Positions 21,101 through 49,834 of a stretch of DNA of 55,746 nt are shown here, one piece after another. The translations under genes were made by a program, and so were the position numbers. A model generated the notes under the pieces. The model ran no database searches and was not told where the DNA came from. It worked only from the letters and a program-made list of their open reading frames with translations. Each line of letters starts with the position of its first letter. Positions within the stretch are counted from its first letter, which is position 1. This stretch comes from an uncultured Eubacteriales bacterium (lineage in GTDB: Bacteria > Bacillota > Clostridia > Christensenellales > Aristaeellaceae), in contig CACZXF010000004.1 in NCBI GenBank assembly GCA_902785105.1, forward strand, positions 1 through 55,746, written 5' to 3'.

Positions 21101-24100
21101 GATCGTGCGGCCCTTGACGTTCTTGACCTTGACCTCCACCTTGTCGCCCACGTGGGTGTAGAGCTTGTCGTCCTTCACGGTGCCGTCTTTGGCGGTGATG
21201 GTCACAGCCCCGGCCTCCACGTTCTGGGCGGTCAGCACGTCTACGCCGGGGATGGCGTAGTCGATGGTGACGGGGTTCAGCTCCAGCTCGATGTTGACGC
21301 TCTTGTCGGCCTTTTCCAGTTCGCCCTTGTCGGTCTCGACGTACCAGCCGTTGTCGTCCTTCTTGGCCTCGACGGTGCCGGACACCTCGAAGCCGCTCTT
21401 ATCGCTGAAGCTGTAGTTTACCTTCTTGTCGGCAGGCATATCATAGCCGTCCTTGAAGGAGATGTAGATCTTGGGACGGACGTCCGCCATGTCGCCCTGA
21501 CGGATGGTCGCGGTGCCGCCCACGCCCACGGTCATCTTCACGTGGTCGTTACTGGCGACGGACTTGCCGTCATTGCCGCCGCCCACGTCCTTCTTGGCGT
21601 CGGTGACGGCGGACTTGTTGGCGCTGGCGTTGCCCTTGGCGTCGGTGGCGGCGGAGGCCACGTTGTTCACGGTCCGCAGCTCGTCGGCGTTGACGATGGC
21701 TTCGCCATACACATGGACGGTCTTGGAGCTGCCCTCCAGTTCGGCGGTGGTGGCGGCGTTGACCACGGTCACGGCCACGCTGCCCGCCACGCCCACGTCG
21801 CGTGTGCCCGCGCCGGAGATGGCCTGGGTGTCGATGACATGGCCGGTGGCCTTGGCCTGCTCGGCCTCAAGCCGGAGATCGTAGTTGTCGGACAGCTTGC
21901 CCAGGGACTCGTTGGTCAGCGTCACCAGGGCGGTCTTGGCCGCGTTGCGGAAGCCTTCGGCGATGAGCTTCTTGAAGTCCTTGCCTTTCAGCTTCTTCAT
22001 CATGTCCTCGTAGTCGAAGACCTTTTCCTTGAAGGTCCTGGTGACATTGTCGGACATCCCGCGGATGGTGGACTGGAGGCTCTCCTTGGAATAGGCGTCC
22101 TTCAGATCGTTGAAGGCGTTCACCACGCGGTCGATGTTCGCCTGCTTCAGGGCCGGGACGCTCTTGGTGAGCTCACCCAGCGCATCGCGCAGGGAATAGG
22201 TGATGAAATTCTCAAGGGCGGTATCGGCGCTCTTGCTGATCTCCTTCCCGGCCTCCTCGAGCACCTTGTTGAAGGTAGCGCTGAGGCCGTCAGAGAACAC
22301 GCCGCCCAGTAGCTCAGAGACGTGGTCCTTCAGATACTTCATGAGGCCGTCGCGGGTGCCTTCCAGCACTTCCCCGCCGGCGGTCTGGAGATGATACGCC
22401 AGCCGATTCTCGACCTGATTCATCAGCGCCTTTTGGACGCCCTCAAGGTCGGCCTCGGACAGATCCTCGAGGTCCATGACCTCGCCCAGAGCCTTCATCA
22501 TCGGCTCCTGGAGCTGGCTCACCAGGGCGACCACGCCGTCCTTGGTGTCGGCCAGCAGTTTCTTGGCGGCATCATAGCGACTGCTCAGGCTGTTCTTCGC
22601 CAGGGCTTGGCTGATGCCGGTGGTCTTGAGCAGTTCGTCGCTGACATTGGTGACCACCTTGCCGACGATTTCGCCCACGACGGTGTCAGAGATGTACTGA
22701 TCCAGTCCCATCTCCTTCACGAGGTCGTTGATATAGCTCTTTACGGTATCGCCCAGCCACGCGGCCATTTCATCGGGCGTGTCGGTCTTTTTCTTCTCTT
22801 CCTTCTTCTTTTCCTTGGGCTTGTTGATCTGGGTAGTGGCGGTCAGCTTCAGCATGGCGGCTTCGATCTCGCCGTCGCCGATGTGCGCCAGGTTGTTCAG
22901 ATTGACGATGTTCACAGCGACGCCCACGCCCACGCCCACGTCGGAATTTGTGGTGCTGGCGTTGGCCTTCACCTTGGAGGTGGTACCGTTGAGGCCAGTG
23001 ACGGCAAGCACCTTGCCGGCCTTGATATCCACGCCGTTTTTGACCTCGGACTTATTCTCGCTGGTCTGGATGTTCACGGCTACAGCGCCGGCCACGCCCA
23101 CGGTGCCCTCGCTGGTCTCGGCCTTCTGGCGCTTCTTCGCGGCGGCGTCGATGCCCTCGGCGGTGACGCTGCCGGACTTGTTCTTATTGGCCAGCTTGGC
23201 CGCGCCGCCCAGCAGGCTGTCGGCCTGCTTGTCCGCGCTCTTCTTGTCCTTCTTGCCGCCGGCAGCGCTGGCCGTGACGGTCTCGGTCATGCTGCTGATG
23301 GTCTTGGAGGCCACGGTGACAGTGGCTGCCTCCACGCTCTGGTTCAGCACGGCCTGAGCCACGTCCTTCACCACAGAAACGCCCGCAGCAATGCCGACGC
23401 CCGTGCCCTTGCCGGTGGCGGAAGCATTGGCGGTGACGGTATGGATCACGTCAGTGGACGCGGACACATTCGCGGTGTCCTTGACCTTCAGCTTGCCGTC
23501 GAAAACCCTGCCGATAGAGGCATTCGCCGTCGCGCCGATGACGTCCACGGCAGCCACGGGCACCACGGAGGTGCCGCCCTTGGCGCCTGCGATGGCGGTG
23601 ACGTCGTCCTTCACCTTCTGATTGGCGGTGACGGAGAGGTTCTTGAGGGAGGTGGTCAGCTTCGCGCCGTCCTGGATGGCGGCGGCGGAATCCGTGCCGT
23701 TCACAGCCACGGCAATGCCAGCCCCGACGCCCGCGTCGCGACTTTCCTTCTTGCTGTTGGCATCACCGCTGACCTTGAACTTCACGTCAGCCTTGGAATC
23801 GACGGAAACCTTGCCCTTGACCGTCAGATTCGCGTCCTTGTAGATGAGGGCCTTGGCGTCCTGGGAGGCCACCTGCACGGAGACCGCGCCGCCGGCGCCG
23901 ATGTTGCCCTTGCTGTAGCCGGCCTTGGAGGTGGTGGAGGTGCCGCCCTTCTGGGAAGCGCCCACGGCCAGGTTGCCGGCTTCGACCTTGCCCTTGAGCT
24001 CGGTTTTGCTCTCGCTGTTCACCACGCTGACCGCGATGCCCGCGCCCAGGCTGGTGTCCACGGCGGAGGAATCCGACTGGCCGGGCTCAAACTCGCCGGT

Positions 24101-27100
24101 GAAGGTGATGGTGACCTGCGAGGGATCAGAGATGTTCTCGGGAACGGTGAAGTTATAGGTCGTATCGTTGGTGCGGCCCATGTACACCTCTTCGGTGTAG
24201 GAGCCGTCCTTGGCCTTGATGACAGCCTTGAGGGTGCCCGCCTTGACCATGAAGTTGTCCTCGGGCTTGACGGTGACGGTCACCATATCGCCCCGGTCCG
24301 CGCGAGGCAGGCTGGGCTCGACGGTGCCGTTTTCCAGCTTCGCCGCCTCGAGGGTGACGTCCTTCAGGGACAGCGTGGCGGTGACGGTCAGCTTGGCGTC
24401 ATCCTTGGTATCCTTGGGCACGCTGAAGCTGGCGCCCTTTCCCTCAGCGACGACCTTGCCGCTGGCGTCGGTGACCTTGACGCCGGAAATCTTGTAGCCC
24501 TCTTCGATCTTCTTCTTGGAAAGGCTCAGCTTGACCTTGTCGCCGGTGGCGACGGTGTACTCGGAGAGGGTGTAGTCCTTGGAATCCTTGCCCTCGCCGG
24601 TGTAGAGGCCGATGGTCTTGCGCTGGAAGGTGGCGTAGACGCTGACCGCGCTGCCGTCCTTCAGTTCCGGCACGTCGAAGGTGTAGACGCCCTCGATCTC
24701 CTTGCCCTTTTCGTCCTTGGCCGGCTTGATCTTGGTATCCTCATCGGAAAGCTTGTAGGTGGTGCCGTTGTTCAGCTCCACAACGATTTCCTTCACGGCA
24801 TAGCCCGCGTCCGGTGTGACGGAGAACTTCGGTGCGTCGGTGCGCTTGACATTCTTGTCGTACAGCTTCACCGAGCCGTCCTTGGTCTTGTCCTTGTCCA
24901 CGGTGAAGTCGTGCAGATCGTCCTTGAATTTGCCGTTGATGGTGATGAGCGCGCCCTCGGGCAGATCCTTGTTTTCAAGCACCCAGAGGCCGTCCTTCTT
25001 GGTCAGGGCCGCCTCCTGCTTCTTGCCCTTGGCGTCGGTCCAGGTGGCCTTCAGATCGACATCCAGGACATAGCCCTTGTCGGTCTTGGCCTCGGCGGCA
25101 AATACATAGGAAGTGATATTGCCGTCCTTGTCGGTCTTGGCCTCGCGGAACGCGACGGTACCCATGTCCGTCTTGGTCTTGCCATCCTTATCCGCAGTGC
25201 CGTTATAGCTGATATTGAAGGCGTTGGGGATGATGGCCTGAGCCGCCTGAGTGGAGACGGTCTTGCCGTATTCGCCCTCCTTGGCAAAGATGAAGGACAC
25301 CTGGGCCATGCTGCCCTTGTCCACCTTGTCCATGTTGCCGAAGTCGAGGGTGTAGTTGCCATCCTTGTCCTTCTTGAGATCGACGGTCTTGCGCTTGCCG
25401 CCCTCCAGATAGGTGATGACAGCCTGGGAAACCGAATAGCCCGCTTCGGGAGTGGCGGTGAAGGTATACTTGTTCCGGTCGCCCGCCTTCCAGGTCACCT
25501 TGCCGTTCTCGGTGGGGTCCAGGATCAGCGCGGCCTCGCGCAGCGCCACATCATAGCCGGTATAGGTGCCCTGCTTGGGCCGGGAGATGGCGTAGGAGGT
25601 CTCCTCCTCCTTCTTCTTGCCGCCGGCCGTCTGCTTGTCCACGGCGGTGCCGTCGGCGGCGGTGGTGATGTAGGTGACGGCGTCAGCATTGACGCTCACC
25701 TTGCCGCCCGCCTTGATGGTCGCGGCGGGATCGATGTACGCCTTGTTGTCGTTGGTCGCCACAGTCACGGCCACAGAACCGGTGAGCTGGGTCTGAGTAG
25801 TGTCGGCGCTGTTGTCTTCGCCGGGCACGAAATTGCCCGCCACGCTGACGCCCTCATCGACGACGATGTTATCGGGGATCTTGACGATGTAGCGGCCATG
25901 GGCATCGGCATTGACGACCACGGTCTTTTTGACGGTCTTTTCGCCATCCTTGACGGACCAGGTGGCCTTCAGGCCGCCGTCCGCCAGCTTATACTTGCTG
26001 TTGGGGTTGGGCACCAGTCGCAACTCGGTGCCGGGCGCAACGTTTTTCAGACTCTCGTCGGGTTCCTTGGCGTCGGTGTCATAGGTCAGCACCGCGCCGT
26101 TGGTGCCGGACAGCTTGAGCTCGGCGGTCTTTTCTTCCTTGGATTTTTCGCCGGACTTCTCCTCGTCCTTCCCGTCGTTGGGCTCGTCCTTCGTGCCGCC
26201 GACGGCGTCATTCACCACCTGCTCGACGTTCACGTCATCGTTGGCCTTCTTCTCCTCGAAGAGATCGGCGGCGGTCTGAGTGTAGCTCTCGATCTCCTCA
26301 TATTCCACGAACACCGTCACATTCTGGGCGCTCATGGTGAAGCTGGTGCTGTAGACACCATCCTTTTCGCTAAACTTATCGGTGCTGCCGATGGCATATC
26401 TGTCCTCGCCGGGATTGATGCCACGGGCGGAGATGGTCTTTACGCGATAGCCCGGCCAGGGGGTGACGCTGACCTTCACCACGGCCTTGCCGTCCTTGAT
26501 ATCGGTGTCCAGCTTGACCTCGCCCTTCTTGCTGGCGTTGTCATCCAGGCGCACGGCCTTTTCGCCGATGGCGATCTTCTTGATGGCCGCGTCGATCTTC
26601 TGCTGGGCGGTCTCGCTCTTGATCTTGCCCTTGATCCAGTTCCAGGCCTTGAGCAGAGTTTTAAGGACGGACGCCGTGGTATCCTCGGCGTTATCGTCCT
26701 CCTTGTCGCAGTTGGCGGCAGTGGCTGTGGTGTTCACGTTTTCATTGGCGACGGAATCCACCTTCACGCTGCCCTTGTCGGCGGTGACCTGACCAGTCTG
26801 GCCCACCTCGGCCTTCACATCCTGGAGGGCCACGGTCACGCCCACATAGCCGCCGGAAATGCTGTCCCCGGAGGAGCCGCGCCCGGCGGAGGTGTCTGCG
26901 TCGATGTCGCCCTTGGCGCGGATGACCGCGTCGCCCTTATAGGCATGTACGGTGCCGTTGACGGTGGTCCGCACATCGTTGATCAACACGGACACGGCCA
27001 CTGCGGCGGGCGTATTGCTATAGCCGGAGACCGCTTTGTTGGAAACCTTGATCTTACCCTCGGAACGGATGGAGACATCCCTCGCAGCCTCAATGACCGC

Positions 27101-39244: not shown

Positions 39245-41158
39245 TCACAGATTCTTTACAAACAGGCAGCGTATGGCATTCAGCACAGCGAGGATCATCA
39301 CGCCCACGTCGGCGATGATGGCGATCCACATGTTCGCCAGGCCCAGCGCGCCGAGAACCAGGCAGATGGCCTTGATGATCAGCGCGAAGGCAATGTTCTG
39401 CTTCACGATGCCCAGACACTTCCGGGAAATCTTGATGGCCTTGGCGATCTTCAGGGGATCGTCGTCCATCAGCACGATGTCCGCCGCCTCGATGGCCGCG
39501 TCAGAACCCAGCGCGCCCATGGCGATGCCGATGTCGGCGCGGGAGAGCACGGGCGCATCGTTGATGCCGTCGCCCACGAAGGCCAGCCGCTTCTTGCCGG
39601 TGCATTCCTTTAGCAGCTCCTCTACGCAGGCCACCTTGTCCTGGGGCAGCAGCTCGGCGCGGTAGTCGGTGAGGCCCACGTCCGCGGCCACCTGCTTCGC
39701 CACAGCCTCGGCGTCGCCGGTGAGCATGACGGTCTTTTCGATGCCCGCCTTTTTCAGTTCTGCCATGGCCTCCTTGGAGTGCTCCTTCAACTCGTCGGAG
39801 ATGACGATGTGCCCGGCGTATTCCCCCGCCACGGCCATGTGGATGATGGTGCCCACGTGGTGGCAGTGATGGAAGGGGATGCCCAGCCTGTTCATCAGCT
39901 TCTCGTTGCCCACCGCCACGTCAGTGCCGTCCACCTTGGCAGTGATGCCGTGGCCGCTGATCTCCTGGAGGTCGGTCACCCGCTTGGGATCGACTTTTTT
40001 GCCATAGGCCTTCTGCAAACTCAGGCTGATGGGATGGGAGGAATGGCACTCAGTCAATGCGGCGTATTCCAGCAGCTTTGCTTCATCAATGGGGCTGTGA
40101 TGGACCGCCGTCACCTCGAAGTTGCCCTTGGTGATGGTGCCGGTCTTGTCAAAGGCCACGGTGGTGACCTCGGAGAGGGTCTCAAGGTAGTTGGAGCCCT
40201 TGATGAGTATGCCCTGATTGCTTGCCCCGCCGATGCCGGCGAAGAAGCTCAGCGGTATGGAGATGACCACCGCGCAGGGGCAGGAGATGACCAGGAAGGT
40301 GCAGGCGCGGAGAATCCAGTCCCGCCACATCTCGCCGGTGGATGCGTAGCCCGCCATGCCGACTTTGGTGATCATCATGAAGATCGACGGTATCAGCGCC
40401 AGCGCCAGCGCGGCGTAGCACACGAAGGGGGTGTACACCTTGGCGAACTTGGAGATGAAGTTCTCAGATTTGGACTTGCGGGAGGCGGCGTTCTCCACCA
40501 GGTCCAGTATCTTGGAGGCGGTGGATTCGTCGAACTCGGTGGTGGTGCGGATCTTCAGCACGCCGGACATGTTGATGGAGCCGGACAGCACGTCGTCGTC
40601 CACGGTGACCTCCCGGGGCTTGCTCTCGCCGGTGAGGGCGGCGGTGTTCAGCGCGGAGGAGCCCTCCACCACAACGCCGTCGATGGGCACCTTCTCGCCG
40701 GGTTGGACCACGATGATGGAGCCCTCCTCCACCTCGTCGGGGTCCACCCGCTCCAGGGTGCCGTCCTCGGTCTCGATGTTGGCGTAGTCCGGGCGGATGT
40801 CCATCAGGTCGGAGATGTTCTTGCGGCTCTTGCCCACGGCGTAGCTCTGGAACAGCTCGCCCACCTGATACAGCAACATGACCGCCACGCCCTCGCCGTA
40901 CTCGCCCAGGGCGATGGCGCCCACGGTGGCCACGGTCATCAGGAAGCACTCATCGAACATCTTGCCATTCTTGATGCCCAGGAACGCCTTGCGCAGTATG
41001 TCGTGGCCCACCGTCAGGTAGGGGATCAGGAACAGTATGATCAGCGCCCACTGCGGCATGTTCACATGCACGATGTCCTCTGAGATCAGATACAGGGGCA
41101 CAAAGAATACGGCGGCAATGATGATGCGAATGAGCAGATTCTTCTGTTTCTTGTTCAC
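39245..41158 (-). CDS. Zn/Cd-type P1B heavy-metal-exporting ATPase lacking an HMA domain
   Basis: A 637-residue membrane ATPase. CPC in FLVISCPCAVVISIP (transmembrane metal site), phosphorylation motif DKTGTITKG, TGES, HP in ECHSSHPIS, GDGINDAP, and a last-helix Asp in IIADVGVMILAVLNAIR place it in the P1B-2 (ZntA/CadA) group. The usual N-terminal HMA domain is absent; a free HMA protein is encoded upstream. A HHCHH cluster in the nucleotide-binding domain is unusual and could bind metal. The frame is open to 41227, but those codons come from the repeat element; GTG at 41158, nine bases after AAAGGG, is the likely start. It is regulated with the SmtB-like repressor only if transcription passes the terminator and repeat between them. 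Confidence 0.92.
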   Translation of the reverse strand: MNKKQKNLLIRIIIAAVFFVPLYLISEDIVHVNMPQWALIILFLIPYLTVGHDILRKAFLGIKNGKMFDECFLMTVATVGAIALGEYGEGVAVMLLYQVGELFQSYAVGKSRKNISDLMDIRPDYANIETEDGTLERVDPDEVEEGSIIVVQPGEKVPIDGVVVEGSSALNTAALTGESKPREVTVDDDVLSGSINMSGVLKIRTTTEFDESTASKILDLVENAASRKSKSENFISKFAKVYTPFVCYAALALALIPSIFMMITKVGMAGYASTGEMWRDWILRACTFLVISCPCAVVISIPLSFFAGIGGASNQGILIKGSNYLETLSEVTTVAFDKTGTITKGNFEVTAVHHSPIDEAKLLEYAALTECHSSHPISLSLQKAYGKKVDPKRVTDLQEISGHGITAKVDGTDVAVGNEKLMNRLGIPFHHCHHVGTIIHMAVAGEYAGHIVISDELKEHSKEAMAELKKAGIEKTVMLTGDAEAVAKQVAADVGLTDYRAELLPQDKVACVEELLKECTGKKRLAFVGDGINDAPVLSRADIGIAMGALGSDAAIEAADIVLMDDDPLKIAKAIKISRKCLGIVKQNIAFALIIKAICLVLGALGLANMWIAIIADVGVMILAVLNAIRCLFVKNL

Positions 41159-41398: not shown

Positions 41399-41617
41399 TT
41401 ACAGGAAGATCTCGCAGTCGTCCTCGACCTTCTTGCAGTTGGTGCGGACGTTCTGCATGACGGCGGCGGGATCAGCGCCCTCTTCGAACTCGACCTTCAT
41501 CTTGAGGGTCATGAAGCTCACGGTACAGTCCTTGACGCCCTCGGTCTTCTTGGCGGCGTCCTCCATCAGGTTCGCGCAGTTCGCGCAGTCCACGTCGATC
41601 TTGTAGGTCTTCTTCAT
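41399..41617 (-). CDS. Free-standing HMA-domain metallochaperone (Zn/Cd type)
   Basis: A 72-residue ferredoxin-like HMA protein. The metal loop is DCANCANLME, with the Asp before CxxC that is typical of zinc/cadmium ATPase HMA domains rather than copper chaperones (MxCxxC). Two further Cys near the C-terminus (TNCKK and DDCEIF) are extra. It is likely to hand metal to, or act in trans for, the adjacent ATPase that lacks its own HMA domain. AAGGGGAGG precedes the ATG. It follows the repressor gene by 20 nt. Confidence 0.9.
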   Translation of the reverse strand: MKKTYKIDVDCANCANLMEDAAKKTEGVKDCTVSFMTLKMKVEFEEGADPAAVMQNVRTNCKKVEDDCEIFL

Positions 41618-41637: not shown

Positions 41638-41964
41638 TTATTCTGACAGGTGTTCCATGCCCTGGCCGATGATCGTCCTGACGTGATCGTCCGCCAGAAA
41701 ATAGTAGATCTGCTTGCCCTCCCGGCGGTTGCGCACCAGACGGGCCTGCTTGAGCACCCGGAGCTGATGGGATATCGCCGACTGCGTCATGCCTAATACC
41801 TCCGCGATGTCGTAAACGCACAGCTCCGATTCGAACAGCGCGTACAGTATGCGGATGCGCGTGGTGTCGCCGAATACCTTGAAAAGCTCCGCCAGGTCGT
41901 AGAGGCTCTCCTCGTCCGGCAGCTCCGATTCCACGCGCTCCAGCAGCTCCCGGTTCTCAGACAT
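41638..41964 (-). CDS. SmtB/CzrA-type ArsR-family zinc-sensing repressor
   Basis: A 108-residue winged-helix repressor: FKVFGDTTRIRILYAL, ELCVYDIAEVLGMTQSAISHQL (recognition helix) and the wing REGKQIYYFLADDHV. The C-terminal helix carries DxH-x10-H-x2-E (DDHVRTIIGQGMEHLSE), the exact spacing of the alpha-5 zinc site of SmtB/CzrA. The alpha-3 ELCVYD lacks the second Cys of the CadC/ArsR alpha-3 Cys pair, so zinc (or cobalt/nickel) is the best guess. A GTG at 41973 is in frame, but it overlaps the GAGGTG site; the ATG at 41964 was chosen. Derepression by zinc should induce itself and the HMA gene. Confidence 0.92.
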   Translation of the reverse strand: MSENRELLERVESELPDEESLYDLAELFKVFGDTTRIRILYALFESELCVYDIAEVLGMTQSAISHQLRVLKQARLVRNRREGKQIYYFLADDHVRTIIGQGMEHLSE

Positions 41965-42053: not shown

Positions 42054-43247
42054 CTATTGCTTCCCCCGTCGTGCCTGCACGGCGCGATAGGAGCAGGCTT
42101 CAGCCAGGGCGCAGAGCTCGTTGAGGTTGGCATCCGCGTTGTAGATCCTGACGACGCGGGAGAGGTCGTCGAAATTGTAGGCGTTCATGGCGGCGCTGGC
42201 GGAGAGGGCGTACTTTTCGTTGTAGTCCTCAGCGCTGTCGGAGACCCATAAGCCCTGGGTGACCTGTATTGCCTTCCCGTCGTCCCGGAAATCTTCGGCG
42301 TAGCCGGTGACAGCGTTCAGAATCAGCGCGAAGGCGGGGCCGACCATGGAGTTATACTTGCCCACCACGAATTTGAGCACGCCGTCGGTGACGAGCTGGA
42401 GGTTTCGGGTGTTGTAGCTGTCCACGATGCCCAGCGGCGTCTTGCCGATGACCGGCACCATGCCCTCGGGGGGCAGGACGGACAGCACAGCGTCGTAGGT
42501 GCCCCCGGCAAAGGCTTCCTTCGCGGTCTCGAGGAAGTTGTCGCGGGTGATGTAGCCGGGGCAGATGGTCACGCTGACGCGGTCGGTTTCCACGGTCACG
42601 GGCGTCTCCGTCCGGGCGAGGTCCTCGCGCTTCTGGGAGAAGGTGGCTCCGTAGGCGCTGGACAGGGTGTCCAGTATGCCCAGGGTGCGCTGGTAGTGCA
42701 TCTCATTGCCCAGCGACGCGCCGCCGCTGAGTATGAAATAGCGATTTCCCGTCTTTTCCCGGAGGAAATACCGGGCCATGTCCGCGCCGGCCTGGAACTC
42801 GAAGGGCTGGCCGGGGCCGAACATGCCGAGGAACCAGGGGTTATCCTCCACCGCCTCGAAGTCCTCGGCGGAGACGGTGCCGGAAGCCAGCAGATAGTAG
42901 GCCTTGTTCTGCTCGCACAGCGCGATCTCCGCTTTCAAATCGTAGGACAGAAAGGACAGGAAGCCCTCTACCCCGTCCGCGCAGGCGGCCCTGATGAAGT
43001 CCTGTTCCTCTTCCTCTGTCCGTATGGAACCGGAATAGACGAACTTCACCATCTCGAAGTTGTCCTCGATGTAGCCCTGGAGGTACTCTCGGAAGCCCTG
43101 CACCTCCTGGTCGGCGGTGTTGTAGACGATGACGCCGATCTTGTGGACCTCGGTCGGCTCCTGTTCAACCACAGACTCTTTCTTTGAACAGGCAGCGAGA
43201 CTCACGCACAGCATCAGCGCAAGGAGGAACGCAAGCGCTCTCTTCAT
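42054..43247 (-). CDS. Type-I periplasmic-binding-fold lipoprotein in the riboswitch operon
   Basis: A 397-residue lipoprotein: signal peptide with lipobox LAAC (Cys20), then a LacI/BMP-like ligand-binding fold opening HKIGVIVYNTADQEVQGFREYL and continuing with FILSGGASLGNEMHYQRTLGILDTL. It is the last gene of the seven-gene unit: its ATG overlaps the stop of the second ATPase (ATGA), so it is translationally coupled. Opp/Nik systems normally use a single type-II (cluster C) binding protein, so a second, unrelated binding-fold lipoprotein is unexpected. It could be a surface sensor or an alternative substrate-capture subunit. Function unknown. Confidence 0.8.
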   Translation of the reverse strand: MKRALAFLLALMLCVSLAACSKKESVVEQEPTEVHKIGVIVYNTADQEVQGFREYLQGYIEDNFEMVKFVYSGSIRTEEEEQDFIRAACADGVEGFLSFLSYDLKAEIALCEQNKAYYLLASGTVSAEDFEAVEDNPWFLGMFGPGQPFEFQAGADMARYFLREKTGNRYFILSGGASLGNEMHYQRTLGILDTLSSAYGATFSQKREDLARTETPVTVETDRVSVTICPGYITRDNFLETAKEAFAGGTYDAVLSVLPPEGMVPVIGKTPLGIVDSYNTRNLQLVTDGVLKFVVGKYNSMVGPAFALILNAVTGYAEDFRDDGKAIQVTQGLWVSDSAEDYNEKYALSASAAMNAYNFDDLSRVVRIYNADANLNELCALAEACSYRAVQARRGKQ

Positions 43248-44218
43248 GCGGCTCCCCCCTTCCCGAAGCGGTGACAGGCGACCTCGTGGCCGGGGCCGAT
43301 CTCGGTCAGCGTGGGCTTCTCATGGCGGCAGATGTCCTCGCAGCACTCGCAACGGTCCTGGAAGGGGCAACCGGTGGGCAGGTCCAGCGGACTGGGCGGC
43401 TCGCCCTTGATGGGCTCGATCTTCTTGGAGAAGTCCATCCTGGTGTCAAACACCGCGCTGAGCAGCGCCCTGGAATAGGGATGGCAGCAGACCTGGGAGA
43501 GCTGGTCCCCCGGCATGACCTCCACGATGTTGCCCAAATACATCACCGCGATCTGATGGGAGAAGGATTGAATGAAACCTAAGTTGTGGCAGATGAAGCC
43601 TATGGTGATGTTCTTCTCCCTTTGCAGGCGGGTAATCAGCTCGATGACCGTCTCCTGTACGGAAACGTCCAGCGCGGAGGTGGCCTCGTCCATCACGATG
43701 ATCTCCGGCTCCAGGGCCAGCGCCCTTGCGATGGCGACCCTCTGCCGCTGGCCGCCGGACATGTTGTGGGGGTAGCGGTCGATAAAGTCGGCGGGCAGTT
43801 CCACCATTTTCAGCAGTTCCGCGGCTTTGTCCCGCTTCTGAGAGGGCCTGATCCTGCCGTAATTGAGCAGCGGTTCGCACACGATGTCCCTGATCTTCAT
43901 CTTCGGGTTGAAGGATGTGGCGGGGTCTTGGAACACCATCTGGATGTGCTGGCGCATTTCGTGGAGCTCGCGGCCCTTCAAGCGGGTGATGTCCCGGCCC
44001 TGATAGATGATCTCGCCCTCCGTGGGACGGTCCAGCCACACTAAAAAGCGCATGAAGGTGCTCTTGCCGCAGCCGGATTCGCCGACGAGGCCCAGCGTCT
44101 TGCCCTTATAAAGCTTCAGATTGATGTCGTTGCAGGCCACCAGCTCCCGGCCATTTGAGACGGGGAAACGGCGGGTGACGTGCTTCGCCTCTAAGATGAG
44201 GTCCTTTTCGTCAAACAT
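43244..44218 (-). CDS. Oligopeptide/nickel-type ABC transporter ATPase (OppF/DppF/NikE-like)
   Basis: A 324-residue ATPase: Walker A GESGCGKST, signature MSGGQRQR, Walker B IIVMDEATSALD. The C-terminal oligo_HPY extension carries the Cys cluster CPFQDRCECCEDIC seen in OppD/OppF/DppF proteins, which can hold an iron-sulfur cluster. The ATG at 44218 overlaps the end of the preceding ATPase gene by 8 bp and has GGGAGGG nine bases upstream. The longer frame upstream is in the neighbouring gene. Confidence 0.92.
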   Translation of the reverse strand: MFDEKDLILEAKHVTRRFPVSNGRELVACNDINLKLYKGKTLGLVGESGCGKSTFMRFLVWLDRPTEGEIIYQGRDITRLKGRELHEMRQHIQMVFQDPATSFNPKMKIRDIVCEPLLNYGRIRPSQKRDKAAELLKMVELPADFIDRYPHNMSGGQRQRVAIARALALEPEIIVMDEATSALDVSVQETVIELITRLQREKNITIGFICHNLGFIQSFSHQIAVMYLGNIVEVMPGDQLSQVCCHPYSRALLSAVFDTRMDFSKKIEPIKGEPPSPLDLPTGCPFQDRCECCEDICRHEKPTLTEIGPGHEVACHRFGKGGAA

Positions 44219-44999
44219 AGCGCTTCCCTCCCAGTGACGGCACGGCCCCGATGAGCTTTCGGGTGTATGCGTTGGTGGAATCATTGAGAATGTAGCCCCG
44301 CTCGCCCTGATCCTCGATGTGGCCGTCCTTCATCACGACCACCTTGTTCGCCATGTAGGCGGCGACGCCAATGTCATGGGTGACGACGATGATGGATGTG
44401 CCGTATTCGTCCCGAAGCTCCATCATCTGGCGGACGATCTGGGCCTGTGTGGTGACGTCCAGGGCGCTGGTGGGCTCGTCGGCCAGCAGCAGCTTGGGCT
44501 GGTAGGTCATGCCCATGGCGATGCCCACGCGCTGGCGCATGCCGCCGGAGAGTTGGAACGGGTAGGAGCGCATGATGCGGTCCGGGTCGGGCAGGCGCAT
44601 GCGTGAAAGCATGTCCGCGCCCTTCTTCCAGGCGTCCTGTTTGGAGATGTGCTCGTGGGTGCGGATGTACTCCACGAAGCTCTTGCCGATGAGCCGGGTC
44701 TGGTTCATCATCGCGCCGGAATCCTGGAAGATCATGGAGATATCGTGGCCGCGGAGGGCTCGCCATTCCTTCTTATTTAATTGGAGCAGGGAACGCCCGT
44801 CATAGATGATGTCACCCGAAGAAACCCTGCCGCCGCCGGGCAGCAGGCCCAGCACGGCGCGGATGACGGTGGTCTTGCCGCTGCCGCTCTCCCCCACCAC
44901 CGAGCAGATCTCGCCCTGCTCCAGATCGATGGAGCAGCCGCTGACGGTGACGTGCTTGCCGTAGGAGACGTCTATGTTTTTGATTTCAAGCAGTGCCAC
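44211..44999 (-). CDS. Oligopeptide/nickel-type ABC transporter ATPase (NikD/DppD-like)
   Basis: A 262-residue ATPase: Walker A GESGSGKTT, signature LSGGMRQR, Walker B LLLADEPTSALD, and H-loop VVTHD. It lacks the oligo_HPY Cys extension of its partner, and its length is close to NikD. It starts at GTG 44999, seven bases after GGAGG, and only 4 nt past the stop of the upstream permease, so the coupling is tight. Confidence 0.9.
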   Translation of the reverse strand: MALLEIKNIDVSYGKHVTVSGCSIDLEQGEICSVVGESGSGKTTVIRAVLGLLPGGGRVSSGDIIYDGRSLLQLNKKEWRALRGHDISMIFQDSGAMMNQTRLIGKSFVEYIRTHEHISKQDAWKKGADMLSRMRLPDPDRIMRSYPFQLSGGMRQRVGIAMGMTYQPKLLLADEPTSALDVTTQAQIVRQMMELRDEYGTSIIVVTHDIGVAAYMANKVVVMKDGHIEDQGERGYILNDSTNAYTRKLIGAVPSLGGKRYV

Positions 45000-45003
45000 G
45001 CGC

Positions 45004-45840
45004 TTACCTCCCTTCATTGGACCGGGGGTCCAGTATGTCGCGGAGGCCGTCGCCCAGCATGTTGAACACGACGACGGTGACAAATATGGCCAGGCCGGGG
45101 TAGATCATCAGCCAGGGGGCGGACTGCATGAAGTTGCGCCCCTCGTTCAGCATAGAGCCCCACTCCGGGTTCGGCGGCTGCGCGCCGAATCCCAGGAAGG
45201 ACAGCGCGGCCAGCTCCATCATCATGCCGCCGATGTCCGTGGCGGCGGTGATGACCAAGGTGGTGATGGTGTTGGGCAGCATGTACTTCCAGAGCATATA
45301 GGGGGTCTTGGAACCGGTGACCATGGCGGCGGCCACGAAGTCCGTGTGGCGGATCTTCATGACCAGCGACCGGGCAAGGCGGGCATACTTCGGCCAGCTC
45401 ACCACGGCGATGGCGATGATGGCGTTCTGCGTGCTGGCCCCGAGGATGCCCGCCACGGCGATGGCAAGGACCAGGCCGGGGAAGGCGATCATCATGTCCG
45501 CCAAGCGCATAATAATCGCGTCTACAATGCCGCCGAAGTAACCGGCCAGGATGCCCAGAAAGGTGCCGATGACGAAGATCACGGCCACCAGTATGAACGT
45601 GGAGGACAGGGATATCCGCGCCCCGTAGAGCACGCGGACGAATATGTCGCGGCCCATCTTGTCCGTGCCGAAGGGATGCTCGGCGCTGGGCGGCTTGATG
45701 GATTCCTTCAAACTGCCCTTAATGGGGCTGACCCCGCCGCTGAGCTGGGGCGCGAATATCGCCATCAGTATGATGAGCAGCGCCAGCACGGCGAACACGA
45801 CAAAGACGGGATACTTTCTAATGAAACTTTTCTTTTCCAT
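45004..45840 (-). CDS. ABC transporter permease (DppC/NikC-like)
   Basis: A 278-residue inner membrane permease with an N-terminal TM (FVVFAVLALLIILMAIF), HPFGTDKMGRDIFVRVLYGARISL, which is characteristic of DppC/OppC/NikC, and the EAA loop near DFVAAAMVTGSKTPYMLWKYM. A GTG at 45849 overlaps the previous stop (GTGA), but the ATG at 45840 has better spacing to GAGG; either may be used. Confidence 0.9.
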   Translation of the reverse strand: MEKKSFIRKYPVFVVFAVLALLIILMAIFAPQLSGGVSPIKGSLKESIKPPSAEHPFGTDKMGRDIFVRVLYGARISLSSTFILVAVIFVIGTFLGILAGYFGGIVDAIIMRLADMMIAFPGLVLAIAVAGILGASTQNAIIAIAVVSWPKYARLARSLVMKIRHTDFVAAAMVTGSKTPYMLWKYMLPNTITTLVITAATDIGGMMMELAALSFLGFGAQPPNPEWGSMLNEGRNFMQSAPWLMIYPGLAIFVTVVVFNMLGDGLRDILDPRSNEGR

Positions 45841-45845
45841 ATCGT

Positions 45846-46784
45846 TCACCGCCTCAGCCGCATCCGCGGGTCAACATAGTTGTAGGAGATATCCACCAGC
45901 AGGTTGATAACCATGTAGATGACCGCCACCCACAGCACGTAGCCCTGTATCAGATAGTAGTCATAGGAGGTGATGGCCTGCACCGCCAGGTTGCCCATGC
46001 CGGGATAGGAGAATATGACCTCCACCACGCTGGTGCCGCCCAGCAGGGAGCCCACGGACAGGCCCAGCATGGTGATGAGCGGCAGGAGCGAATTGGGGAA
46101 GACGTTGCCCCACAGTATCTTCCATTCCGCCACGCCCCGGGCCCGGGCGCCGATGACGTAATCGGAGTGCAGCTCCTCCAGCACCGCCGTGCGCACCTGC
46201 CGGGTATACTTGGCGGACATGGCGACGGCCAGCGTCACGGCGGGCAGTATCATGTCCTTGAAGGTACCGCCGGAGGATACCACGGGCAGCAGGCGAAGCT
46301 GCACGCAGAACACCAGGATCAGCAGGAGGCCCACCCAGAAATTGGGGATGGACACGCCGAAGAAGGTGATGGCGCGGACGATGTAGTCGATGGGCTTGTC
46401 CTGATACACCGCCGAGAGCACGCCCAGCGGCACGGAGACAAGCAGCATCAGCACCATGCTCATCAGCGCCAGCTTCAGCGTGGGCCACAGCCTCGCCAGC
46501 AACAGCGTCACCACAGGCTTGCCCAGTGCGAAGGAGTTGCCGAAGTTCCCGTGGAGGCAGTTGCCGAGCCAGCGGAAATACTGGGTCAGGAAGGGGTCGT
46601 TCAGCCCCATCTCCTCCCGCTGCTGGGCCACCTGCTCCTCGTCGGGCATCAGGCCCTGGGCGAGATACATGTTCCGGACCGGGTCGCCCGGCGACAGATA
46701 GGTCAGCAAAAACGTGATGACGCTGATGCCGATCAGCACGATCAGCATCTGCGCCAGTCTGGACAATATCTGTTTCTTGCCCAA
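45846..46784 (-). CDS. ABC transporter permease (DppB/NikB-like)
   Basis: A 312-residue permease of the OppB/DppB/NikB family: opening helix MLIVLIGISVITFLLTYLSPGDP, MGLNDPFLTQYFRWLGN, FGVSIPNFWVGLLLI and the EAA loop in DYVIGARARGVAEWKILWGN. The start is a TTG at 46784 with AGGGGG about eight bases upstream; no ATG near the N-terminus fits. It lies 90 nt after the binding-protein gene, with a GC-rich hairpin in the gap. Confidence 0.9.
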   Translation of the reverse strand: MGKKQILSRLAQMLIVLIGISVITFLLTYLSPGDPVRNMYLAQGLMPDEEQVAQQREEMGLNDPFLTQYFRWLGNCLHGNFGNSFALGKPVVTLLLARLWPTLKLALMSMVLMLLVSVPLGVLSAVYQDKPIDYIVRAITFFGVSIPNFWVGLLLILVFCVQLRLLPVVSSGGTFKDMILPAVTLAVAMSAKYTRQVRTAVLEELHSDYVIGARARGVAEWKILWGNVFPNSLLPLITMLGLSVGSLLGGTSVVEVIFSYPGMGNLAVQAITSYDYYLIQGYVLWVAVIYMVINLLVDISYNYVDPRMRLRR

Positions 46785-46836
46785 GCGAAACGCCCCCTAA
46801 GTCATGGGTTGATATTATAAATAAACAAAGTAAACG

Positions 46837-46863
46837 AGGGGCGGGTGGTGAAACGCCGCCCCT
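46837..46863 (-). repeat. GC-rich hairpin between binding-protein and permease genes
   Basis: AGGGGCGG pairs with CCGCCCCT over an 11-nt loop. It resembles half of the core palindrome of element B at 41193 and may be a remnant of that repeat. Inside an operon it could lower expression of the permeases relative to the binding protein. Confidence 0.5.
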
Positions 46864-46874
46864 GCATTATAGAA

Positions 46875-48431
46875 TTAAGCCGCGGGCACGATCTCGGTGG
46901 TCAGCCAGTAGTAATCGGCGGTGTGGATATGAGCATAGCCGACGTTCTTGGAGAAAGCCATGGAGCTGTTGTAGTAGCCATCGACGATGACCACGGCGTC
47001 GTCCACCAGCACCTGCTGCATCTGCTGGAGCAGGTCGGCGCGGGCGGCGGGGTCGGCGGTCTCGAGGAACTGCTCGTAGAGGGCGTCATAGGCGTCGCTC
47101 TGATAGCCGCAGTAGTTGGAGCCGCTCTTGCCGTACCAGTTGGCCATGTACTCGGTGGGGTCGCCGTTGCCGACGGTGGTCCAGTTGTTGTTGTCCAGGT
47201 CGTAGTTGCCGGTGACCAGGTCGTTCCAGCAGTCGTCGGAGGAGCCGTAGGCGGGGGTGATGCCGATGCCAAGCTCCATCAGATAGAGGGTGTGGGCGTC
47301 GGAGAAATCGTTGAGCAGGCGGTTCTCATAGGAGGAGTAGCGCAGCATGATGGGCTGGCCGTCCAGCTCGCGGACGCCGTCGCCGTCGCTGTCCACGATG
47401 CCCGCCTCGTCCAGCATGGCGGCCGCGGCGTCGGGATCGTAGGCGTAGGGATTGTTCAGCTTATCATAGCCATAGGCCAGAGTGCTGGGCAGCACGGAGA
47501 AGCCCGCGGTGTACAGGCCGCCGATGGTGTTGGATTCGCAGATGGTGTCGTTGTCGATGGCCATGACGATGGCCTTGCGCAGGGTGTCGTTGGCCAGGAT
47601 GCCCTTCATGTTCATCCAGCTGAAGCCGCAGCGGACGCCGGAGGCGATGTCCACGGTGTAGTTGTCGTCGGCCTGGAGGCGCTGGAGGTCGGCGACGTTG
47701 GTGATATTCTCCACCAGGTCCACCTGGCCCGCCATCAGCGCGTTGGCCTTCGCGGAGGCGTCGCCCATGAAGATGATCTCCACCTTGTCATAGGGGACTT
47801 CGCCGTTCCAGTAGTTGGGATTCTTGACCATGGTGTAGCCCACCAGATCGGCGTGGTCCTGCACCATGTAGGGGCCGGTGCCGATGACCTCGTGGTCGAA
47901 ATCGGTGGTCTCGGCCACGTCGATGATCGCCATGACGGGGTAGGCCAGGTTGCCGGTCAGGTTGTAGTCCGGCTTGGGCAGGGTGATGGTGATGGTGCTC
48001 GCCGCATCGTCCGCTACCACCTCAGCCTCGAAGGGCAGGTAGTTCTGGGGGTTGGAGGAGCCGTTGGGGCCCTGCTCCCGGACGCTGTCCAGGGATTCCT
48101 TGACCTTGGAGGCGGTCATGTCGGTGCCGTTGGAGAACTTGACGCCCTCGCGGATCTTGATGGTCCAGACGGTGGAGTCCTCATTGGCCTCCCAGGATTC
48201 GGCCAGCCAGGGCTCGATCTCCATGTTGTCGTTGAACTTGAACAGGCTCTCGCTGATGCCGTAGCGCATGCAGTTCCAGGCGCAGTTAGTCTGGGCAGCG
48301 GGGTTGACCAGACCGTCGGAATACATCTGGCAGCCAAAGGTCAGCGTCTTTTCCTCCGCGTAAGCGGGGGCGGCCGCCAGCGCCAGAAGCATGGACAGGG
48401 TCAGAAACAGTGCCATCATTCTCTTTTTCAT
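46875..48431 (-). CDS. Extracellular solute-binding protein, NikA/OppA family (SBP_bac_5)
   Basis: A 518-residue binding protein. The signal peptide (MKKRMMALFLTLSMLLALAA, ending AYA-EE near residue 26) has no lipobox Cys, unlike most monoderm binding proteins. The mature part shows family landmarks: PWLAESWEANEDSTVWTIKIREGVKFSNG, GTGPYMVQDHADLVGYTMVKNPNYW and an NPYAYDPDAAAAMLDEAG segment. A short upstream frame to 48482 is not used: AAGGAG is positioned for the ATG at 48431. As first transporter gene after the deacylase, it defines the substrate of the riboswitch operon, which cannot be read from motifs; peptide, nickel or metal-chelate are all possible. Confidence 0.92.
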   Translation of the reverse strand: MKKRMMALFLTLSMLLALAAAPAYAEEKTLTFGCQMYSDGLVNPAAQTNCAWNCMRYGISESLFKFNDNMEIEPWLAESWEANEDSTVWTIKIREGVKFSNGTDMTASKVKESLDSVREQGPNGSSNPQNYLPFEAEVVADDAASTITITLPKPDYNLTGNLAYPVMAIIDVAETTDFDHEVIGTGPYMVQDHADLVGYTMVKNPNYWNGEVPYDKVEIIFMGDASAKANALMAGQVDLVENITNVADLQRLQADDNYTVDIASGVRCGFSWMNMKGILANDTLRKAIVMAIDNDTICESNTIGGLYTAGFSVLPSTLAYGYDKLNNPYAYDPDAAAAMLDEAGIVDSDGDGVRELDGQPIMLRYSSYENRLLNDFSDAHTLYLMELGIGITPAYGSSDDCWNDLVTGNYDLDNNNWTTVGNGDPTEYMANWYGKSGSNYCGYQSDAYDALYEQFLETADPAARADLLQQMQQVLVDDAVVIVDGYYNSSMAFSKNVGYAHIHTADYYWLTTEIVPAA

Positions 48432-48493
48432 GGGGTATTCTCCTTCCGAAAAATGTATTATGTATGGCCTGGTGGGGGCCATATAAACAGAAA

Positions 48494-49504
48494 TCAGGTC
48501 TCCGAATCCGCTACGGCATAGGCCACAAGCAGTTCTCCCTTAGGCACAGCCAGGCCGTTGTTCAGATAGAGGACATGACCGTCCATCTCCGCAAAAACAT
48601 CTTCTATTATTTCTCCGTAAAAGTCCTGTAGCGTGCCGAAGCGCTGGCCTTTTTTGACGGGCTGGTTCTTTTCCACCTCGGTATACCAGAGTCCATCCTT
48701 TTCGGTTTCAAGGTAAATGGCTTCCCGGAATACGCGGCGAGGGAGGGCATTATCGTACAGCCCTGTCTCCGGAATAATGCCAAGATGCGCCATAAGCAGC
48801 AATATATCCTTGCGATTGGCTTCCACCCACTGTGCCTCGCAGAAATAGCCCTCGCCCCGCTCAATCAGCAGGCCAGGGATGTCCAGTTGTGAGGCGGCGT
48901 AGCTGTACTGGCCGCGGGTGGCCTGGGATTCGATGAGAAAGCCGATGTTCATGGCCTTGGCCGCGCTCAGCGCCGCCTCCCGGACCTTCGGATGGGTCGG
49001 GAAAAAGACCAGCGGCGTCATGCGCTCACCCCGGCTGCCGCCGTGAAGGTCCAGTATGAAATCCACCTGGGGGAATATTTCTTTCACGAAGAATGCGGCC
49101 ACGCGCTCCCCCACCGTTCCGTCAGCTTTGCCGGGATACTGGCCGTTGAAATTGAAATGATCCTCGGGAGTGACGCGCGGATACATCGTCCAGAAGCCGG
49201 AGGTGTTGACACAGGGTATGGCGATGAGCCGGCCTGACATTTGCTGAGGATCGACTTCCCGCGCCGCCTGAATCGCCGCCGGAGTGCCGTTGTATTCGCC
49301 GCTGTGCATACCGGCGGTGACCAGCAGCGTTTTGCCAGGCTTCGCGCCGTTGACGAGTATCACGGGCAGTTCGTAAGCCCCGCCCTCGCGGGTGCCGGGC
49401 AGCACCTCGCCATGATTGGAAAGCCCATCCATAGGCACACGAATCGTCGCGTTCAGCCTCTCGCCGGGGTTCAGCGCTTCACCGAATATCCTCCACTGCT
49501 CCAT
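48494..49504 (-). CDS. Succinylglutamate desuccinylase/aspartoacylase-family (M14-like) zinc deacylase
   Basis: A 336-residue zinc enzyme. The ligands are visible as GMHSGEYNG (His67, Glu70) and DLHGG (His154), with the catalytic Glu in IPGLLIERGE (about 215) and a substrate-loop NFNGQYPG. This group removes acyl groups from amino acids (AstE, AspA) or acts as carboxypeptidase; many members of this subgroup are of unknown substrate. No signal peptide, so cytoplasmic. It is the first gene behind the cobalamin riboswitch and precedes the NikA/Opp-type transporter by 62 nt (a small hairpin TATGGCC/GGCCATA lies in that gap). It probably processes the imported compound; inference. Confidence 0.9.
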   Translation of the reverse strand: MEQWRIFGEALNPGERLNATIRVPMDGLSNHGEVLPGTREGGAYELPVILVNGAKPGKTLLVTAGMHSGEYNGTPAAIQAAREVDPQQMSGRLIAIPCVNTSGFWTMYPRVTPEDHFNFNGQYPGKADGTVGERVAAFFVKEIFPQVDFILDLHGGSRGERMTPLVFFPTHPKVREAALSAAKAMNIGFLIESQATRGQYSYAASQLDIPGLLIERGEGYFCEAQWVEANRKDILLLMAHLGIIPETGLYDNALPRRVFREAIYLETEKDGLWYTEVEKNQPVKKGQRFGTLQDFYGEIIEDVFAEMDGHVLYLNNGLAVPKGELLVAYAVADSET

Positions 49505-49524
49505 GGTCAGCCCTCCTCATAATT

Positions 49525-49566
49525 AAAAACGGCCCGCCTCCGCGCATGCGGCAGCAGACCGTTTTT
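49525..49566 (-). terminator. Riboswitch-linked intrinsic terminator
   Basis: On the minus strand AAAAACGG... pairs with ...GGCCGTTTTT through a GC-rich stem with small bulges and a GCAT loop, ending in TTTTT 20 nt before the deacylase gene's start. It is placed between the cobalamin aptamer and the first gene, as an expression platform would be. Confidence 0.8.
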
Positions 49567-49621
49567 CAGCAGCCAAAACAAAATCATCCGTCCTTCAAAG
49601 TCCGTGAAGCGAATGTATCAG

Positions 49622-49790
49622 AAACTCAGGCAAGTCTTCTGGCTCATGGATCATCGCGTCGGCCGTCTTCCCGGTTTTCACCAGTGACATCGTGGCTTCC
49701 GCTCCCCAAATACAGCGGCGGCTCCGCGCGGGATTCTCACCCGCTTCCTTTTTCAGCCTCCCCTTGGGGAGGACACCTGTGTCGATTATT
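49622..49790 (-). promoter_or_regulatory. Cobalamin riboswitch
   Basis: Read on the minus strand, the conserved cobalamin aptamer boxes appear in order: GGAAGCGGGTGAGAATCCCG, CGCGGAGCCGCCGCTGTA, GGAAGCCACGATG, then the 3' box GAGCCAGAAGACTTGCCTG, which can pair back to the 5' CAGGTGTCC. Known cobalamin riboswitches turn genes off when B12 binds. The downstream terminator suggests transcriptional control of the deacylase-transporter operon. Confidence 0.92.
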
Positions 49791-49805
49791 CAATTAATTG
49801 TAATA

Positions 49806-49834
49806 ATATTATCATAATGGACTTCCAAAGTCAA
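49806..49834 (-). promoter_or_regulatory. Promoter of the riboswitch operon
   Basis: Minus strand: TTGACT (49834-49829), 17-nt spacer, TAATAT (49811-49806). Transcription would begin just before the aptamer, giving a leader of ~295 nt. Confidence 0.65.

Follow-up and report, generated by a model that had tools for sequence, protein, structure and literature searches.

A B12 riboswitch was earlier predicted in front of two transporters of the NikABCDE family, in Clostridium tetani and in Desulfitobacterium hafniense (Rodionov 2006, cited in PMC2667541), and in an excerpt of the latter article they stand as exceptions to the nickel specificity of the family; a deacylase, a lipoprotein and a P-type ATPase are not named in the excerpt's description of the two systems. 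Here we analyse a locus that likewise places a NikABCDE-type transporter behind a B12 riboswitch, together with a deacylase, in a stretch of 55,746 nucleotides (contig CACZXF010000004.1 of assembly GCA_902785105.1, hereafter the window) from an uncultured Eubacteriales bacterium of the family Aristaeellaceae. A Nik-type transporter led by such a riboswitch is, going by the same excerpt, already predicted in two species; for the partnership of such an importer with a deacylase we found no description, by title or abstract start, among the papers listed in our searches, which mostly did not extend to subscription journals.

Several other described systems share parts of the locus. The nickel importers NikABCDE and Opp2BCDF-Opp5A have the same five-part Opp-family organisation, and the window permeases score above the Opp2B and Opp2C cut-offs; the window system differs in having a B12 riboswitch, an extra deacylase and a second binding lipoprotein, and its binding protein falls under the NikA cut-offs. 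The staphylopine importer CntABCDF, which imports a metal chelate, is likewise of the Opp family, but the window binding protein reaches 97.1 bits where the CntA cut-off is 800. CbiMNQO would have the same presumed job, the supply of cobalt for B12 synthesis, and is often under B12-riboswitch control; the window transporter, however, is of an unrelated type, and no CbiM was found in its own genome. On the enzyme side, the corrinoid amidohydrolase CbiZ is likewise an amide hydrolase in a B12-controlled context, but its family differs from that of the window deacylase. DoeB (EutE) N-acetyl-diaminobutyrate deacetylase, AspA and AstE share with the deacylase the fold, the PF24827 catalytic domain and the H, E, H, E set of residues, whereas the window protein lies far under the DoeB equivalog cut-off and has glycine at the arginine of the NxNR motif.

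We consider cobalt import the best reading of the transporter, and a probable one, because permeases of nickel type under B12 control go together with genes for de novo B12 synthesis and with neighbours that handle metals. The fuller reading, in which the whole operon would acquire cobalt for making B12 de novo, would be repressed by B12 and would hydrolyse the imported ligand with its deacylase, appears evenly balanced when judged from gene content and comparison.

The leader RNA, the deacylase and the importer

The leader and the seven genes behind it, in the order of transcription, are as follows.

49806 to 49834, minus strand: promoter-like site (TTGACT, 17 bases, TAATAT) directly upstream of the aptamer, a pattern match only, with 9 of 12 consensus matches
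49612 to 49795, minus strand: cobalamin riboswitch aptamer (RF00174), 116.5 bits by covariance model, the top-scoring of five in the genome
49525 to 49566, minus strand: terminator-like hairpin of the expression platform, by folding; it ends in TTTTT, with GAGGAGG and the start codon (ATG) of the deacylase gene following
48494 to 49504, minus strand: metal-dependent deacylase of AstE/AspA/DoeB fold, 336 residues (PF24827, 82.1 bits, cut-off 25)
46875 to 48482, minus strand: SBP_bac_5 binding protein, NikA-like (PF00496, 237 bits), start probably at an internal ATG
45846 to 46784, minus strand: NikB-like permease (Opp2B, BPD_transp_1; NF045470, 391.5 bits, above the cut-off of 350)
45004 to 45849, minus strand: NikC-like permease (Opp2C, BPD_transp_1; NF045474, 329.3 bits, above the cut-off of 300)
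44211 to 45017, minus strand: NikD-like ATPase (PF00005, ABC_tran, 93.7 bits), start by codon score
43244 to 44218, minus strand: NikE/OppF-like ATPase with an oligo_HPY C-terminus (PF00005, 125.8 bits; PF08352, 51.9 bits), start assigned in the same way
42054 to 43247, minus strand: lipoprotein, 397 residues, type-I periplasmic binding protein fold by predicted structure

A full cobalamin riboswitch lies ahead of the operon, and the aptamer that the first-pass annotation had read from the letters is confirmed as complete by the Rfam covariance check, in which all 189 positions of RF00174 were covered with an expectation value (E) of 1.4e-28 and a score well past the gathering score of 31.5. 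The terminator claimed downstream of it was recovered too, by folding, after a simple terminator pattern scan of the region had missed it. The 71-nt stretch holding the hairpin reaches a folding energy of −29.9 kcal/mol (z −2.75; 1 of 200 shuffles was equally good), with an outer stem of 14 pairs in the centroid fold and five T at the end, and the same hairpin is kept in three relatives, at loci L018, L019 and L021 (z −4.50, −2.89 and −4.96, respectively). Its conservation fits transcription attenuation, and aptamer and hairpin together would place the operon under corrinoid-dependent control. Three promoter-like sites of this quality, the upstream one included, were found in the region, where shuffled sequence gives 0.9 on average.

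The only Pfam match of the deacylase is PF24827. Its nearest solved structures are 3na6, DoeB (6twm/6twl) and 3cdx, and its predicted model (mean predicted local distance difference test, pLDDT, 94.9) superposes on 3cdx and 6twm with template modelling (TM) scores of 0.79–0.85. H67, E70, H154 and E215 are invariant across 23 aligned deacylases, the window's included, and we take them to be the metal ligands and the catalytic base/glutamate of the AstE/AspA superfamily. Where that superfamily has the NxNR motif the window deacylase reads NFNGQYPG, with Gly in place of Arg, a position filled by Gly or His in its closest relatives; among 78 clustered deacylases the Arg is found in 57 and another residue in 17, the pattern being unmatched in 4. 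The arginine presumably binds the substrate carboxylate. The annotation as N-acetyl-diaminobutyrate deacetylase was rejected, the DoeB equivalog model (TIGR02994) giving 100.2 bits, a quarter of the cut-off of 402.7.

The seven packed minus-strand genes span 42054–49504, and their content as first read was borne out by Pfam and NCBIfam (AstE_AspA_cat, SBP_bac_5, BPD_transp_1 twice and ABC_tran twice), with the lipoprotein fold assigned by model. Neighbouring genes overlap by 4 (NikB/NikC), 14 (NikC/NikD), 8 (NikD/NikE) and 4 bases (NikE/lipoprotein), and the binding protein gene is flanked by gaps of about 11–74 bases before and 90–126 bases after, depending on the start codon. The N-terminus of the binding protein is signal-peptide-like, and no lipobox cysteine was seen in it by eye; its two best solved structure matches are nickel-binding proteins. 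Together with the NCBIfam names, these matches would favour a transporter that imports nickel and is linked to B12 only indirectly. B12 control fits cobalt instead, and the two NikABCDE cases led by a B12 riboswitch are treated as exceptions to nickel specificity in the excerpt of PMC2667541, so that we regard nickel uptake as highly improbable.

The lipoprotein had no Pfam or NCBIfam match at E 0.001. By its AlphaFold2 model (pLDDT 86.8) it is a protein of type-I periplasmic binding protein fold: Foldseek aligned it to 5ocp with E 1.3e-11 and TM 0.56/0.71, and the model had 366 PDB matches at E ≤ 0.001, the best 50 of which are periplasmic solute-binding or LacI-type proteins, mostly named sugar-binding. 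A Bmp/PnrA type was considered and set aside in view of the mostly sugar-binding types among those best 50 of 366. A cysteine occupies the lipobox position in 8 of 10 aligned members.

Recurrence of the deacylase with a riboswitch-led importer

The deacylase was searched at E 1e-20 in 150 genomes of the host family, its own included, and was found in four of them: its own, G060, G052 and G016. The whole operon with its riboswitch is carried by G060 (69% identity), and no gathering-level riboswitch was found in the stretch around the deacylase in G052 and G016. A same-genus genome (L016, 2300–10266) shows a Nik-type operon, two genes for S-adenosylmethionine (SAM) methyltransferases and a divergent deacylase, with no riboswitch found at gathering level.

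In a scan of a genome collection, a four-sequence deacylase alignment was the only query, and the best 80 of 253 relatives were kept (L017–L096). Homologues of NikB/C (tblastn above 100 bits) are present on 50 of the 80 loci; in 49 the distance to the deacylase is at most 8 kb. The Rfam scan covered 45 loci, 44 directly and L018 via L014, which is contained in L018 letter for letter; for the remaining 35 we used only two covariance models, which were built from riboswitches found at these loci and in the own genome. Rfam and these models replaced a B12-box scan by regular expression, which had given 8 loci with some overlapping copies. A cobalamin-class riboswitch at gathering level precedes Nik and/or the deacylase in 26 of the 80 loci, which answers positively the first-pass question of whether the set recurs behind B12 riboswitches elsewhere. 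The first custom covariance model gave 27 of 82 loci below E 1e-4; these comprise the 26 and, in addition, L077, where the riboswitch leads neither Nik nor the deacylase.

The deacylase lies downstream of the riboswitch on the same strand in 17 of the 26. Six of these loci have the order riboswitch, deacylase (L017–L021 and L050), with a metal-sensitive repressor gene (PF02583) between the two in L050 and a contig that stops after the deacylase in L017; eleven have the order riboswitch, Nik, deacylase on one strand (L022–L028, L030 and L083–L085). Between riboswitch and Nik there is a LysR-like gene in L027 and L071 and another frame in L028. One of the 26 is a metagenome-assembled genome (MAG) of Planctomycetota (L083, 47 bits), and the others with a phylum placement are Bacillota. 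Of the 80 loci, 9 have the lipoprotein and 12 the P-type ATPase (L014 not counted). The set is found in many gut bacteria, and cultured carriers include Cellulosilyticum ruminicola, Lachnoclostridium sp. An138 and Phascolarctobacterium faecium, the deacylase being divergent in the last.

In a deacylase tree obtained by a quick search, with labels assigned by hand and L050 still labelled as Nik only, the window belongs to a well-defined clade with branch support; it counts 19 rows, and 15 of these have both riboswitch and Nik. This label requires 11 changes over the tree, at least 8 of them forced by well-supported branches, and single inheritance therefore does not account for the pattern.

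The same loci bear on the possibility that the chelator is made by the cell itself, exported by a MATE protein and re-imported by Nik as the cobalt complex, which the deacylase would then open; esterases open some iron siderophores in such a manner. A MATE-cluster gene lies less than 3 kb from the deacylase in 24 of the 80 loci, in three MATE clusters with one member each confirmed as MatE, and in L016, L029, L050 and L085 genes resembling SAM methyltransferases occur at distances of up to about 7 kb. The count of 24 is, however, inflated by many near copies from Acidaminococcaceae, and neither a MATE nor a chelator-synthesis gene was seen by eye in the gene list beside the window operon. A search for opine dehydrogenase (PF10100) was negative in all 15 genomes, but the control genomes were likewise silent, and the result weighs neither way. 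We hold a self-made cobalt metallophore to be very unlikely.

A separate set of ten loci (L048, L049, L052, L053, L056, L057, L078, L082, L086 and L090) combines the deacylase with a more distant Opp/Nik-type transporter. Six of the ten loci have a LysR-cluster gene and seven a MATE-cluster gene; the riboswitch search was empty (Rfam for L048 and L049, the custom models for all ten), and CbiD was not found in 2 of the 3 genomes searched. In Phascolarctobacterium, riboswitches lie near the deacylase on the opposite strand (L077, 4428–4600; L079, 9488–9660), and in L079 a methylmalonyl-CoA mutase gene follows.

Cobalt and B12 genes around the operon

The own genome (G000, 92% complete) has five cobalamin riboswitches, a run in which the anaerobic cbi genes cbiG, cbiJ, cbiC and cbiD stand with corrin-methylase genes, and three CbiK matches; at this completeness it gave no match to CbiM, NicO or CbiZ (PF01955). 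One of the other riboswitches precedes an importer with Peripla_BP_2, FecCD and ABC_tran domains (L009), which we take to be of BtuFCD type, and another precedes a CbiK with a signal-peptide-like N-terminus (L006, 4617–5877, contig C43). Of 10 family genomes, 6 show a riboswitch-CbiK pair, which is followed twice by a further CbiK match. In contig C51 (L007, 4700–5492) a riboswitch is followed by about 600 bases in which no gene was found and then by a 648-residue protein with a Bmp domain.

Past the lipoprotein the same strand continues into three metal genes that the first-pass annotation had left out.

41638 to 41964, minus strand: ArsR/SmtB-type metalloregulator (NF033788, 103.6 bits, cut-off 55)
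41399 to 41617, minus strand: heavy-metal-associated (HMA) protein, 72 residues (PF00403, 31.6 bits, cut-off 24.8)
39245 to 41158, minus strand: heavy-metal P-type ATPase, Cd/Zn type by score (TIGR01525, 563.6 bits; TIGR01512, 500.2 bits)

By strand and position they may be an extension of the operon transcript. The HMA and P-type ATPase genes adjoin the operon in L018 and L019, an ArsR homologue is next to it in L019, and HMA is kept in L021, whose contig then ends; in L022 and L023 a P-type ATPase homologue lies between the lipoprotein and deacylase genes. Elsewhere, cbiJ, cbiB, an aminotransferase gene and a CbiA/GATase_3 gene immediately precede the riboswitch and deacylase (L020), and a NiCo riboswitch with a cation-efflux gene stands beside the deacylase in Phascolarctobacterium faecium (L047, 10947–12004), a locus that also contains three cobalamin-class riboswitches. 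In a Lachnospiraceae MAG (L034, 4106–5902) one frame of 598 residues joins CbiK to an AstE/AspA deacylase domain; this frame is flanked by a MATE-cluster gene on one side and another deacylase on the other.

These data also allow the salvage of corrinoids to be weighed, in which the importer would take incomplete corrinoids such as cobinamide and the deacylase would replace CbiZ, cutting the nucleotide-loop amide for rebuilding. B12-riboswitch control, the lack of a CbiZ match in the own genome and the membership of the deacylase in a family of amide hydrolases agree with it, as does L094, where the deacylase has genes for a Peripla_BP_2 protein and a BtuC-like protein as neighbours. On the other hand, the riboswitch-led BtuFCD-type importer is already present in the own genome, the permeases of the operon are of nickel type, and the neighbours recorded above (ArsR, HMA, P-type ATPase, the PF02583 repressor and the NiCo riboswitch) are metal genes. 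Moreover, the domain is fused in L034 to the cobalt insertion enzyme, and CbiK inserts cobalt before any corrinoid amide exists; DoeB, one of the closest solved structures of the deacylase, takes its name from a small substrate, an acyl amino acid. We judge corrinoid salvage unlikely.

CbiD was found in 18 of 20 genomes searched, and in 12 of 12 among those with the riboswitch-Nik set; the two misses are the genomes of L053 and L057, which have the LysR-containing set and in which the custom models found no riboswitch. This bears on a nutritional role, in which an Opp/Dpp-type importer and the deacylase would feed the cell with amino acids from peptides or acyl amino acids, B12 control being explained by the use of the products in a B12-dependent fermentation. 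The SBP_bac_5/Opp family also imports peptides, the fold of the deacylase is shared by the dipeptide hydrolase CphZ (8ein), and the related riboswitch-less set of L053 and L057 is found in genomes with no CbiD match. Such a role is nevertheless decidedly unlikely in our view, given that the association with the riboswitch recurs across the deacylase tree, that CbiD was found in each of the 12 genomes searched that carry the riboswitch-Nik set, and that the permeases exceed the nickel cut-offs while metal genes recur alongside.

A proposed route for cobalt and the points against it

In the proposed cobalt-acquisition system, plentiful adenosylcobalamin, or a related corrinoid, would bind the leader RNA and transcription would stop at the terminator, while with B12 in short supply the operon would be read. 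The NikA-like binding protein would capture a cobalt-ligand complex outside the cell, and NikBCDE would import the complex. The deacylase, presumably cytosolic and zinc-dependent, would hydrolyse an amide bond of the imported ligand, which might be an N-acyl amino acid or a short peptide-like chelator, and hydrolysis would both release cobalt for the chelatase CbiK and prevent accumulation of the ligand. The P-type ATPase with its ArsR regulator could expel wrong metals that came in alongside. The recurrence of the deacylase with the importer, and its fusion in one case to the cobalt-inserting CbiK, suggest that it acts on a cobalt ligand after import. The first-pass annotation had proposed uptake and unpacking of a cobalt chelate, a corrinoid fragment or an acylated precursor; the cobalt chelate is best supported, by the Nik-type permeases, the recurrence in 26 of 80 loci, CbiD in 18 of 20 genomes and the CbiK fusion, and the corrinoid fragment is the weaker option.

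A broader proposal, in which gut anaerobes would widely import a cobalt chelate, break the chelator open by means of a dedicated cytosolic hydrolase of AstE/AspA type and hand the metal to CbiK, is possible but rather doubtful. If true, it would be the B12-switched cobalt counterpart of siderophore import and hydrolysis, it would add a processing step to the supply of cobalt for B12, and it would mean that gut and rumen contain an undescribed small molecule that carries cobalt. It would also be a candidate answer to how B12-making gut and rumen anaerobes devoid of CbiMNQO obtain cobalt, to our knowledge an open question. No use of the terms 'cobaltophore' or 'cobalt metallophore' was found in the literature searched, with subscription journals mostly outside.

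Several observations weigh against the cobalt-acquisition reading. The best NCBIfam match of the binding protein, Opp5A_nikA, gives 211.8 bits and does not reach the cut-off of 600, and the score against TIGR02294 (160.4 bits) is also under the cut-off of 393. The riboswitch leads Nik with the deacylase divergent or apart in 9 of the 26 loci (L029, L037, L046, L047, L069, L071, L075, L079 and L094). By Rfam, transporter-deacylase pairs lack a gathering-level cobalamin riboswitch in L043, L048, L049, L064, L066, L070 and L074, and to these are added the pairs of L053 and L057, seen with the custom models only. In the own genome a second riboswitch-led Opp/Nik-type operon, in the order B, C, A, D, E (L008, 3846–9382, contig C20), has no deacylase, so that the deacylase is not required for every such importer; the CbiK-deacylase fusion is a single case from one MAG. 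The first-pass annotation had held that homologous operons free of a B12-responsive leader and shown to import ordinary peptides would speak against it: riboswitch-less sets do exist, and nothing shows ordinary peptide import by them.

The distribution of CbiM belongs to the same side. Among 100 genomes of the host family, CbiM was matched in 18 at E 0.001 and in 5 above 170 bits, and CbiD in 26; a strong CbiM is present in only 1 of these 26 CbiD-positive genomes, and its absence is thus the rule. In ten CbiD-positive relatives, neither Nik nor the deacylase was found in any of 28 short stretches behind riboswitch matches (3 of them below cut-off), which indicates that a riboswitch-led Nik is not the general answer of the family to cobalt supply. 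Two of 12 genomes carrying the riboswitch-Nik set have CbiM, one of them by a weak match, vs. 4 of 6 CbiD-positive genomes without the set, a difference that is not significant (Fisher p 0.11). The absence of CbiM, considered as proof that another importer is needed, is weakened by these family base rates and by the ten relatives.

Two minor observations concern other sequences. Cobalamin riboswitches were seen near one gene each in L149 (G017) and L150 (G031), the gene being on the other strand in L149; it resembles, by eye, what we take to be CbiR-type TIM-barrel proteins. Finally, the minus strand of the window holds, at 10679–28819, a single open frame of 6046 residues.

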